Source: Flavobacteriales bacterium
GTDB lineage: Bacteria; Bacteroidota; Bacteroidia; Flavobacteriales_D; Crocinitomicaceae
Direction: 5' to 3'
Assembly (NCBI GenBank): GCA_015665275.1
Contig: JADFAL010000041.1
Location: 1 to 64,000 of the forward strand
Length of the DNA stretch: 64,000 nucleotides
The position numbers and the translations under genes are program-made. Under the pieces are notes generated by a model. It saw only the letters and a program-made list of their open reading frames with translations, did no database searches and was not told the origin of the DNA. This document shows, piece by piece, positions 9,961 to 14,172 of this stretch (positions within the stretch are counted from its first letter, which is position 1; every line of letters starts with the position of its first letter).

Positions 9961-10518
9961 ATGCACGGCAAAAAGAGCATTTTCACGAATCCCTGCAGCG
10001 AATCTTGGGCAAACATGAGAGGAGACGAACGTCAACGCATGTGCTCTATATGCAAAGAGAAAGTTCAGGATATCTCTGCTTTGAGCTTAAAAGAAATCTC
10101 ACGTGAATATATTGATTCTGGGAAGTGCGTTAAAATGAACTCTGATCAAATTCAGTTCTTTCATTCGTTGCGTTCCGTATCAAAAGCAGCAGGTCTTTCA
10201 GCTGCCTTAATATTCTTTCCTTTCTCTCCTATTCAGGCGCAAGATCAAACTCCTAACGAGAGCCATTGCCTTATTTACGGTAAAATTAAAAGCAACATCG
10301 TTTCAAACCGAAACATTTATGTCATTATCGAAGGCAAGACGTATGAAACGAAAACCACGGAGCATGGAACCTTTAAGTTGAAAATTCCCAAAGGAAAGCA
10401 AATAGAAGATTCTAATATCCGACGCATTACAAATAAAAAAATTGAAGAAGATTATATTAGACTGAAGAGGGTTAGAATTCCCAAAGGGTTTAACGTCATT
10501 GGTACCCCTTCTTTTTAG
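9961..10518 (+). CDS. Hypothetical protein with CxxC motif, one TM segment and a carboxypeptidase-regulatory-like region
   Basis: PCSESWANMRGDERQRMCSICKEKVQDIS resembles a recurrent Bacteroidota N-terminal module; hydrophobic segment near residue 80. Confidence 0.6.
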   Translation: MHGKKSIFTNPCSESWANMRGDERQRMCSICKEKVQDISALSLKEISREYIDSGKCVKMNSDQIQFFHSLRSVSKAAGLSAALIFFPFSPIQAQDQTPNESHCLIYGKIKSNIVSNRNIYVIIEGKTYETKTTEHGTFKLKIPKGKQIEDSNIRRITNKKIEEDYIRLKRVRIPKGFNVIGTPSF

Positions 10519-10603
10519 GCAAATCGAAGGCCGAAACACAATTCTTTTCAAGAAATTGGGTTACCTTCTTAGACCAACTAACATTAATGGGTAAAAGTCA
10601 ATC

Positions 10604-11167
10604 ATGACCGATCAGGAAATTATCCAAAGTATCCGGAACAAAAAGTTCGATCGAGCCGTGCGGGAATTGTATAAACATGAACCCATGATTCGTCGTACAC
10701 TGTTCAAATACGGTACTCCTGAGACGCTTGTACCCGAGATAATTAATGATGGGCTGGTGCTATTACTGGAGAAAACACAGCAACCGGATTTTCAACTAAC
10801 AAGCAAACTTTCAACCTACCTTACTGGAATATGTCTCAACCACTGGAGAAATCAAAGTCGTAAACTTTCTAACAAAGAAAAAGTAGTGCTCGATATAGAA
10901 ATAGCGCAGACCTACGCTTTTGTTGACTACGACGAAGAAAAAGAAGAAAAGCTCCAACTACTGGATACGATTTTGGAGAAAATTCAAGATCGATGCAAAC
11001 AGCTGCTTCGCTTGTTCTATTTCGAGAATGAACGAATGGCAGAAATCGCCAAAAAAATGGGATTTAGTTCCGAGAAATCGGCTAAAACTCAGAAGTACAA
11101 GTGCATGGAAAAAGCACATCAATTGGCGAAAAAAGAATTAAAAAACCTTGAAAATCCAGTAGCATGA
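10604..11167 (+). CDS. ECF-type RNA polymerase sigma factor
   Basis: 187 aa, sigma70 r2/r4-like (LSTYLTGICLNHWRNQSRK; LLRLFYFENERMAEIAKKMGFSSEKSAKTQKYKCMEK); 4-nt overlap with the anti-sigma-like gene. Confidence 0.85.
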   Translation: MTDQEIIQSIRNKKFDRAVRELYKHEPMIRRTLFKYGTPETLVPEIINDGLVLLLEKTQQPDFQLTSKLSTYLTGICLNHWRNQSRKLSNKEKVVLDIEIAQTYAFVDYDEEKEEKLQLLDTILEKIQDRCKQLLRLFYFENERMAEIAKKMGFSSEKSAKTQKYKCMEKAHQLAKKELKNLENPVA

Positions 11168-14100
11168 GACCAGAACTAGAACAACTTGCTCAAATAGATT
11201 CGTACGTAAACAATACGTTGAGTGCTGCTGAATCTGCGGCGTTTGAAGCCGAAATGGCTATAAATCCGGCAATGAAAGAAGCCGTAGAAACACAAAATTT
11301 ATTAATTACGGCGGTGAACCGAAAAGCGCTTCTGGCGCAGGTAGTCGCCGCGGCTCCAGCAACGGTTATGCCACCAAGAGATGGATCGATTTTATCCAAA
11401 TTCAAATGGCCCATCATTCTTTCATCCGTGATTGTAGGAGCCGTGATTTCATTCTTTGCCCTGAGAGGAGATAATGAAGAATTACAGAAATCGCATGACA
11501 ACATTCACGCAAATGCTTCCAATGAACCATCTGAAAGTGAAGGTCTTCGAGCCAGTCGAGAAGTCGATTTTACGTACATCCCTGCCAATCCAGATATCGT
11601 TAAGACTTCACGTCGTCAATTTGGTGGATTAGAAACATGGGGTGCTCCAGAATTACAGCAAATCACCATCGATCCTACCCAAGACGAATTGATCGAATGC
11701 AAGGATGGAACCGTGATTTTCGTACCGGAAGATGCCTTTGTAGATGCTAATGGAAATGTTATTGCAGAGCCGGTAACTTTAGAAATCATCGAGGCGCTTA
11801 CCATGGATAAAATTGTAGCGTACAATCTCGCAACAATGAACGGTGACAACGCACTGAAATCTGGCGGAATGGTATATGTGCAACCGAAATTGAATGGTGT
11901 CAACCTCGAATTGGCCGAAGGCAAATCATTGCACATTGAAGTACCTACAGATGAGTACGACAGCGATATGCAAGCCTGGCGAGGGGTTCCCGATGGAAAT
12001 GGGAATTTGAATTGGGAAAACCCTCAGGCTATAGAAAATTACCTGATCCCAGTGGCTATGAGTTCGCTCGACTTCCTTCCAAATGGATTCCGGGAGGAGG
12101 TTGCAGCGACGCTTCCATTTAAGAGTTATAAAACAAGTTCTCGTGAATTGGAAGACAGCTTGTATTTTTCATTGAGCATTCCATCTGATTACGCCGGAGA
12201 TGATCGTAAGGTTGAAGTTACTGCACCAACGAACCGAGGAAAAACTGTAATTACTGACAAGACGGGTAAAGTTCTAGAGAGCAATACGAATACGACGGAA
12301 GCTCCACGCCAATCCAATAGAAAGGGCCTTTACCGCATTGATAAAAGAGGAAAGGTGCAAAAAGGAATCGGTGGAGTTCAATTCCAAAATCTTCCTGATA
12401 GAGACGATATCACGGCAACGTTCAACTTGAAGGACAAACTGTACAATACGCGAATAGATTCATCAGTATTAAAAACAGACCTTTTGGGATTTGTAAGCAT
12501 AACGTTGAAGAGTAAAGACTGCGCCCCTTACACAATCAATAATGTCTTGGTTGAAGAGGAAAAGATAGTTTTTGTCGATTGTTATGATTGGGGTTGCGGC
12601 GTTCAAAAGAACGAAGAACCGTGTGAGAAATGCTACATCAATCCTTCGGATATTTTCGCAATTCATCAGCCAGAATTTGAAGAAACATTCCTTGCTACTC
12701 GAGAATTTCAAGAGCGTTTGCAAGCACTTCATAAAATTGAAAACGCACAGCCATTATTCGGACTTTACATTAATAATCTGGATAAGAACCTACACGAAAT
12801 TGATCGTCAAGTAGCCGATCGTTTGACCGGCAACGACAAAAGAACGTTCGAAGAGTTCGCCGCAGAAATACTGACGACGGTAAAACCAAATGGACAGGAA
12901 TACGCAGAATTGAAAAAGTTCTACTCGGCGAAATTGAACGAGCAGCGGCAAAAGACACGAAAAGCGCAGGAAGCGCACGCTCAGAAATCAGCAGCTGAAC
13001 TTCAAGCCGTACAAGACGAAATGGCGCAATTACGATTTGATTTCAATCAGAGTCAACGGTTAATCCAGTCGAAGTATGCGCCGAAAAGATCAAAAGGTGT
13101 AAGTCCACCACGCGGTGATTTCATGAGTTCCCCAAGTTCATTTCAAGCACCACAGCAGTTTCAGAATACCAACCCACAAGTGGGACAACAAGCAGCCTAC
13201 AAAGTGAATTGGTATGGTACCGGATGGATGAACATCGATGGGTTTCTTCATGAACTCTCGAAAGGGAAAAAACAAATTCCGATCCATGTGGCCGATTCTA
13301 AAGGAATGAAGGTATACCAATCGGTAAATTCAATGAATACGCTTCTGACATTGAACAAAACAGACGAAGGGTATAATGCCTATTTCCCCACTGCAAATAG
13401 TGCAACTTTCGTTAAGAGTTTAGCACTTGGAGTGAGTCGCTCCGCAGATGGACAATTGAAAGTTGCTGCTCAATTTTTCAATCCTTACGCTTCAAGCGCT
13501 ATCACCTTGAATGACTGGGAATCAGTATCCGAAGATGAGTTCAAGCAAAGATTGAAAAACTTGTACCCAGGAGGGAGGAGATTACTTAAGGCAATAAAGA
13601 CAGAAGAAAGACTAAATCAAGAAGCAGAAGAAAGAAAACGCCGTGCAGAGGAGCAACGAAAGAAGCAAGAAAAAGAGTTGAAGGCGTTAGAAGATGAATT
13701 CCAGAAAAGTAATGCACAGCTAGAGGCGAAAACGGAAAAAATCCGAATGCGTCAGGCGGCCGAGCGTTCTTATATGCAACATTTGGAAGACTTCATTAAT
13801 CCATGTCATGCGAATTATGGCAAATCCTCAGTAGTGAGTCGATCGACGGGCGGAATTGTAGAATTCCCTGACGAAGAAGCTCAATTCCCGGGCGGAACGG
13901 TAGAGTTTATGCGTTGGATTTCCCACAACGTCCAATACCCTCAAGGAGCTATGGATGCTGGAGTTCAAGGAAAGATATTTGTAGAGTTTGTCGTTGAACC
14001 GGACGGAAGTGCATCTAATGTTAAAATAAGCAACAGCGACCCAAGAACGAAATTGTTAGAGGCCGAAGCGGTTCGATTGGTTCAAGGAATGCCTCCCTGG

Positions 14101-14172
14101 AAGAGCGGACAAATGAGTGGAGAAAACGTCAGAACAAGATGTCGCATTCCAATAATCTTTACGCTTGACTAG
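11164..14172 (+). CDS. Anti-sigma-factor-like transmembrane protein with ZU5-like region, coiled coil and C-terminal TonB domain
   Basis: N-terminal anti-sigma-like helices, TM at FKWPIILSSVIVGAVISFFAL, GTVIFVPEDAFVDANGN ZU5-like segment, E/K/Q coiled coil, C-terminal VQYPQGAMDAGVQGKIFVEFVVEPDGSASNVKI TonB_C signature. Confidence 0.75.
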   Translation: MRPELEQLAQIDSYVNNTLSAAESAAFEAEMAINPAMKEAVETQNLLITAVNRKALLAQVVAAAPATVMPPRDGSILSKFKWPIILSSVIVGAVISFFALRGDNEELQKSHDNIHANASNEPSESEGLRASREVDFTYIPANPDIVKTSRRQFGGLETWGAPELQQITIDPTQDELIECKDGTVIFVPEDAFVDANGNVIAEPVTLEIIEALTMDKIVAYNLATMNGDNALKSGGMVYVQPKLNGVNLELAEGKSLHIEVPTDEYDSDMQAWRGVPDGNGNLNWENPQAIENYLIPVAMSSLDFLPNGFREEVAATLPFKSYKTSSRELEDSLYFSLSIPSDYAGDDRKVEVTAPTNRGKTVITDKTGKVLESNTNTTEAPRQSNRKGLYRIDKRGKVQKGIGGVQFQNLPDRDDITATFNLKDKLYNTRIDSSVLKTDLLGFVSITLKSKDCAPYTINNVLVEEEKIVFVDCYDWGCGVQKNEEPCEKCYINPSDIFAIHQPEFEETFLATREFQERLQALHKIENAQPLFGLYINNLDKNLHEIDRQVADRLTGNDKRTFEEFAAEILTTVKPNGQEYAELKKFYSAKLNEQRQKTRKAQEAHAQKSAAELQAVQDEMAQLRFDFNQSQRLIQSKYAPKRSKGVSPPRGDFMSSPSSFQAPQQFQNTNPQVGQQAAYKVNWYGTGWMNIDGFLHELSKGKKQIPIHVADSKGMKVYQSVNSMNTLLTLNKTDEGYNAYFPTANSATFVKSLALGVSRSADGQLKVAAQFFNPYASSAITLNDWESVSEDEFKQRLKNLYPGGRRLLKAIKTEERLNQEAEERKRRAEEQRKKQEKELKALEDEFQKSNAQLEAKTEKIRMRQAAERSYMQHLEDFINPCHANYGKSSVVSRSTGGIVEFPDEEAQFPGGTVEFMRWISHNVQYPQGAMDAGVQGKIFVEFVVEPDGSASNVKISNSDPRTKLLEAEAVRLVQGMPPWKSGQMSGENVRTRCRIPIIFTLD

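Follow-up and report, generated by a model that had tools for sequence, protein, structure and literature searches.

An ECF sigma gene and the gene overlapping its 3' end quite probably encode an autoregulated sigma factor together with its cognate anti-sigma factor, a single-pass membrane protein whose scaffold has two slots for exchangeable cassettes and which here carries a TonB C-terminal (TonB_C) domain as a docking module for an envelope partner. Both genes lie in the window, that is, the whole 64,000-nucleotide stretch of contig JADFAL010000041.1 (Flavobacteriales bacterium, family Crocinitomicaceae, assembly GCA_015665275.1) that was analyzed. The pairing of the two genes, the domain make-up, the exchange of cassettes and the promoter motif can be read from sequence comparison, and the features are collected in Table 1.

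Table 1. Features of the sigma/anti-sigma gene pair, with positions in the window
Feature	Position	Strand	Basis
Promoter-like motif GTTACCTT-N13-ACAT	10560..10584	+	Family sigma genes are preceded by the same two-box motif
ECF sigma factor, 187 aa	10604..11167	+	TIGR02937 (1.1e-14); profile match to solved ECF sigma factors; homolog upstream of 88/88 full-length anti-sigma members
Modular membrane anti-sigma factor (putative), 1002 aa	11164..14172	+	Open reading frame, family alignment and sigma co-occurrence
N-terminal anti-sigma-like domain, residues 1-62	11164..11349	+	Family profile; NF052375 in 25/45 homologs; co-occurrence with sigma gene
Single transmembrane segment, ~residues 80-103	11401..11472	+	Hydropathy above threshold in windows starting at residues 80-85
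Conserved periplasmic domain Z, residues 152-342	11617..12189	+	Family alignment and profile searches; earlier ZU5 label unsupported
Slot 1, variable insert between Z and D2	12190..12627	+	In relatives: cytochrome c, TonB_C, PPIC, other modules
Conserved helical domain D2, family-specific	12628..13035	+	Profile searches of class, order and phylum genomes
Conserved segment D3 (WYxxGWxNID...), ~residues 677-790	13192..13533	+	Alignment A1
Long charged helical stretch, residues 804-883	13573..13812	+	Composition; helix in low-confidence model
Slot 2, TonB_C domain, residues 922-1001	13927..14166	+	PF03544, 53.5 bits; whole-genome match at the same place

Gene pair and architecture of the 1002-aa protein

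A preliminary description of this DNA, made from the letters alone, had reported an ECF sigma gene overlapping the gene of a giant protein, and both open reading frames are indeed present with a 4 bp overlap. In an NCBIfam scan the sigma product scored over the cut-off of TIGR02937 (sigma70-ECF), and its profile matches the solved ECF sigma factors 2q1z/2z2s and 5wuq. Also in agreement with that description, neither ExbB/D nor a TonB-dependent receptor was seen when the listed neighbors between 6000 and 19000 were read by eye. Across the family the sigma gene is the sole recurrent neighbor, and no other conserved neighbor was found. Just 5' of the sigma gene, at 9961-10518 (+), the window encodes a 185-aa protein with a Cys-rich N-terminus, which gave a weak CarboxypepD_reg-like match and no family over cut-off.

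An alignment of 17 homologs revealed a conserved frame consisting of an N-terminal domain, a transmembrane segment, domain Z, a variable stretch, domain D2, segment D3, a charged helical stretch and a variable C-terminus. Hydropathy analysis of the 1002-aa protein located one hydrophobic segment, starting at residues 80-85, matching the single transmembrane segment originally described, and charged helical stretches, in line with the long coiled coil noted at the same time, lie at residues 577-638 and 804-883 (weak model). The ZU5-like label is not supported, with none of the 17 homologous segments matching ZU5 in Pfam even at E=10; the segment is better regarded as a conserved nameless domain, which we term Z, and a PDB profile search with it returned no match. 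AlphaFold was run on the full protein and on residues 1-107, each with one homolog only, and the resulting models were poor (mean pLDDT 35 and 60), with no sigma-binding fold seen.

A probable anti-sigma domain at the N-terminus

Searches of related genomes yielded many homologs with a sigma gene just upstream, and paralogs of the pair lie on contigs 17 and 26. Among 101 full-length members, the sigma gene lies directly upstream on the same strand in all 88 that carry the N-terminal domain and in none of the 13 that do not, the same pattern as in a first, smaller set (45/45 versus 0/11). Fisher's test of this association gives p=1e-16, a value that overstates independence, as the sequences are related. 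The N-terminal domain was gained or lost at least four times on a 57-row tree. In addition, the NCBIfam model NF052375 ("anti-sigma factor") is matched by 25 of 45 homologous N-termini, with a best value of 2.6e-6, and zf-HC2 has weak matches in 13 of the 45. The N-terminus of the window protein matches neither of these models, and no anti-sigma domain was found in it over a curated cut-off. In a PDB profile search with the N-terminal domain the best anti-sigma chain was 3hug (E=0.75). Class I anti-sigma factors have a helical fold that places helix 1 on sigma4 and helix 4 on sigma2; in the window protein, low-confidence AlphaFold models predict helices at residues 3-17, 21-33 and 35-61.

The anti-sigma-like character first ascribed to this N-terminus is supported by the conserved linkage to a sigma gene and by the NF052375 matches of its homologs, and it very probably is an anti-sigma domain. 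Since the window N-terminus has no significant match of its own and no usable AlphaFold model was obtained, we strongly infer, rather than demonstrate, that it binds the sigma factor; membership of the window protein among the class I anti-sigma factors is likewise likely and not proven, because neither a domain match at a curated cut-off nor the fold was obtained. The same lack of any structural or curated sign of an anti-sigma fold in the window protein would suit a different role, in which sigma is not inhibited by the N-terminus and the protein forms a co-transcribed envelope structure or acts as a positive co-factor. However, the perfect co-occurrence of N-terminal domain and sigma gene and the anti-sigma matches among homologs argue against such a role, which we consider very improbable.

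Many of the 13 members without the N-terminal domain look like lipoproteins. Five scaffold proteins of this kind (L101, L108, L112, L117 and L125) begin with a signal resembling that of lipoproteins and lack a sigma gene, and in them the Z-D2 frame is used as a free envelope protein. A further locus (L243:684 onwards, +) encodes a 554-aa Z-domain protein whose N-terminus is FecR-like by eye, and this protein may be a second type of sigma regulator that contains Z.

Promoter motif and candidate regulon

A two-box motif, consisting of GTTACCTTT or GTTTACCTTT followed at nearly fixed spacing by ACAT, is centered ~40 bp before the sigma start codon. In its strict form it was found upstream of the sigma gene in 49 of 89 cases, mostly at fixed spacing, and a loose form precedes 53 of 116 sigma open reading frames versus 3 of 795 background open reading frames. 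Because this promoter-like motif (GTTACCTT-N12/13-ACAT) precedes the sigma genes in more than half of the pairs, the pair in the window included, autoregulation of the sigma/anti-sigma pair is implied.

Four other exact copies of the motif are present in the window genome, two of them no more than ~55 bp 5' of genes that encode secreted Z-domain proteins (L224:1554-2855, +, and L220:2-1501, -), of which one is a lipoprotein and one is encoded beside an exonuclease VII large-subunit-like gene. These two genes are suggestive candidates for membership of what would be a small regulon. Over the whole window genome the motif is no more frequent than its reversed control, and it was absent from Z-only genes fetched from other genomes.

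Exchange of cassettes at two fixed positions

A local profile detected TonB_C in 20 of the 87 anti-sigma members; in 14 it is C-terminal and in 6 it lies internally, between Z and D2. Pfam confirms the domain in all six internal cases and in most C-terminal ones, with L115 falling below cut-off. Twenty-five of the 87 members carry cytochrome c (profile plus CxxCH, Pfam-confirmed in a subset) and two carry PPIC rotamase, and DsbD_N-like, CarboxypepD_reg and CHU_C domains also occur. The CHU_C domains and the Bacteroidetes-type sigma matches point to Bacteroidota as the phylum. As TonB_C is found in only these 20 members, and there either at the C-terminus or internally, it is not the essence of the family.

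On the scaffold tree, at least 11 state changes are needed for TonB_C and at least 22 for cytochrome c. There are pairs of members with 80-93% identity between the scaffolds whose inserts show no more similarity in alignment than shuffled sequence; the scaffolds of L203 (DsbD-like) and L218 (cytochrome c) are 93% identical, and that of L193 (cytochrome c) is 81-83% identical to those of L105, L194 and L200 (all DsbD-like). The TonB_C domains of the window protein and L047 group with TonB_C proteins of the genus, that of L049 with those of G061 and that of L104 with those of G151. A single clade of all members' TonB_C domains was rejected (AU p=0.001), as was a clade of the window, L047 and L049 domains (p=0.025). 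With unrelated cassettes on scaffolds of 80-93% identity and TonB_C domains matched to lineage, this is a cassette-bearing membrane anti-sigma family and not a fused TonB energy transducer. Bacteria seem to rewire the input of a sigma switch by swapping the cassette. We find it reasonably likely that the family gains inputs through exchange at two fixed positions, where cytochrome c, DsbD-like, PPIase, CarboxypepD_reg or TonB_C cassettes would provide redox, protein-folding or outer-membrane sensing, and that it includes heme-bearing anti-sigma factors.

Of the conserved domains, D2 is specific to the scaffold family (40 of 395 genomes of the class, 60 of 399 genomes of the order, and in the phylum sample nothing but the window genome and a single weak match elsewhere). 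Z is widespread, found in 221 of 395 genomes of the class and also within secreted proteins. This distribution of Z, together with the facts that most members work without TonB_C and that the scaffold is the conserved part, would fit a reading in which the Z/D2/D3 scaffold does the sensing and TonB_C is a mere structural anchor or length gauge, attached to peptidoglycan, the outer membrane or the protein itself. The repeated exchange at two positions suggests instead that the cassettes carry the specificity, and we regard the anchor as unlikely.

The TonB_C domain and a proposed mechanism

The C-terminal TonB_C domain of the window protein was verified by HMM search, with PF03544 scoring well above its Pfam cut-off of 24.6 bits (E=3e-14), TIGR01352 also over cut-off, and solved TonB chains matched down to 2e-5. 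TonB energy transducers have a short cytoplasmic N-terminus and a transmembrane segment with a conserved histidine for ExbB/D. The window protein has a cytoplasmic N-terminus of ~79 residues, and its transmembrane segment, KFKWPIILSSVIVGAVISFFALRG, which begins near residue 80, contains no histidine. The original proposal of a fused anti-sigma/TonB protein survives in part: the anti-sigma assignment and the fusion to TonB_C hold, but with these features, and with TonB_C in mid-protein in six relatives, the protein is not a usual TonB transducer.

A Ser/Thr kinase encoded on contig 4 of the window genome (G000, L066:6045-7589, -; PF00069 at 7.6e-58) also ends in a TonB_C domain (3e-14), which over 105 residues shares 46% identity with the one in the window protein. 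The kinase is a second signaling protein of this genome that apparently has TonB_C as its periplasmic input, and the fusion of TonB_C to it as well supports TonB_C being a general periplasmic input module there. On contig 9 of the same genome (68848-69962, L012), two tandem TonB-like genes encode a transmembrane segment, an acidic or proline-rich linker and TonB_C. They have no adjacent ExbB/D matches and have same-length relatives in many genomes of the genus, and the closest TonB_C relatives of the window domain are their products.

In its strong form, the original idea would make the protein a true TonB/anti-sigma hybrid: energized by ExbB/ExbD, it would exert a pull on outer-membrane receptors and signal to sigma whether these are occupied. 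The good preservation of TonB_C, its resemblance to the TonB_C domains of TonB-like proteins of the genus and the presence of ExbD proteins in the window genome are in keeping with such a hybrid. Given the long N-terminus, the absence of histidine from the transmembrane segment and the mid-protein TonB_C of relatives, an energized TonB is nevertheless unlikely, and given further that 67 of 87 anti-sigma members have no TonB_C and that the kinase points to a general module, we judge the hybrid improbable.

The milder part of that proposal, in which the anti-sigma protein would use TonB_C to dock onto a partner in the envelope, is plausible and would fit the similarity of the domain to TonB_C proteins of its own genus. 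In the cassette-scaffold mechanism that we favor, the first ~62 residues would hold the sigma factor in the cytoplasm, and the periplasmic scaffold (Z, D2, D3 and the coiled coil) would provide two cassette positions taking different sensing or docking domains. In the C-terminal slot, the TonB_C domain found here, which is related to those of the genus, would most likely bind passively to an envelope partner, one that the resident TonB proteins recognize as well. We infer both this partner and a release step, in which altered TonB_C binding would free the sigma factor, through proteolysis or a conformational change, to transcribe its own operon from GTTACCTT-N13-ACAT.

Comparison with known systems

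Like TonB energy transducers, the window protein has a C-terminal TonB_C domain with the usual motifs; unlike them, it has a long cytoplasmic domain, a transmembrane segment without histidine and a scaffold that mostly lacks TonB_C in relatives. It resembles FecR/PupR cell-surface signaling in being an inner-membrane anti-sigma protein that could read the state of the outer membrane with a TonB-type domain involved. In contrast to FecR/PupR and their TonB-dependent receptors, TonB_C is here part of the anti-sigma protein itself and no receptor is adjacent, and Pfam and NCBIfam scans gave no match to the FecR domain. The kinase of the same genome shares the arrangement of a cytoplasmic signaling domain, one hydrophobic segment and TonB_C, but has a kinase in place of the anti-sigma domain and no Z/D2/D3 scaffold.

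In layout the window protein resembles class I membrane anti-sigma factors of the RseA, RskA, RsiW and RslA type, which have a short N-terminal helical domain (predicted here with low confidence), one transmembrane segment and a gene directly 3' of the ECF sigma gene. The window protein differs from them in having no match at a curated cut-off, and its family in the exchangeable modules of a periplasmic part of ~600-1000 aa. In each class I group, as PMC7406223 reports, the fused domains show striking conservation, from which the modular family departs. In the literature searched, which comprised open-license papers only, there was no description of anti-sigma factors with cytochrome c, ZU5 or TonB C-terminal domains, and the family is apparently undescribed. 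Its near-identical scaffolds with different sensors would serve as natural experiments on the transmission of a periplasmic signal across the membrane to an anti-sigma domain, and the cassette frame would offer a modular base for building sensors. Finally, a class I anti-sigma neighbor is found for 6% of Bacteroidetes ECF sigma factors versus 32% on average, and how the rest are regulated has been posed as a question (PMC7406223); as one candidate answer, the modular family may explain part of this scarcity of recognized anti-sigma factors.
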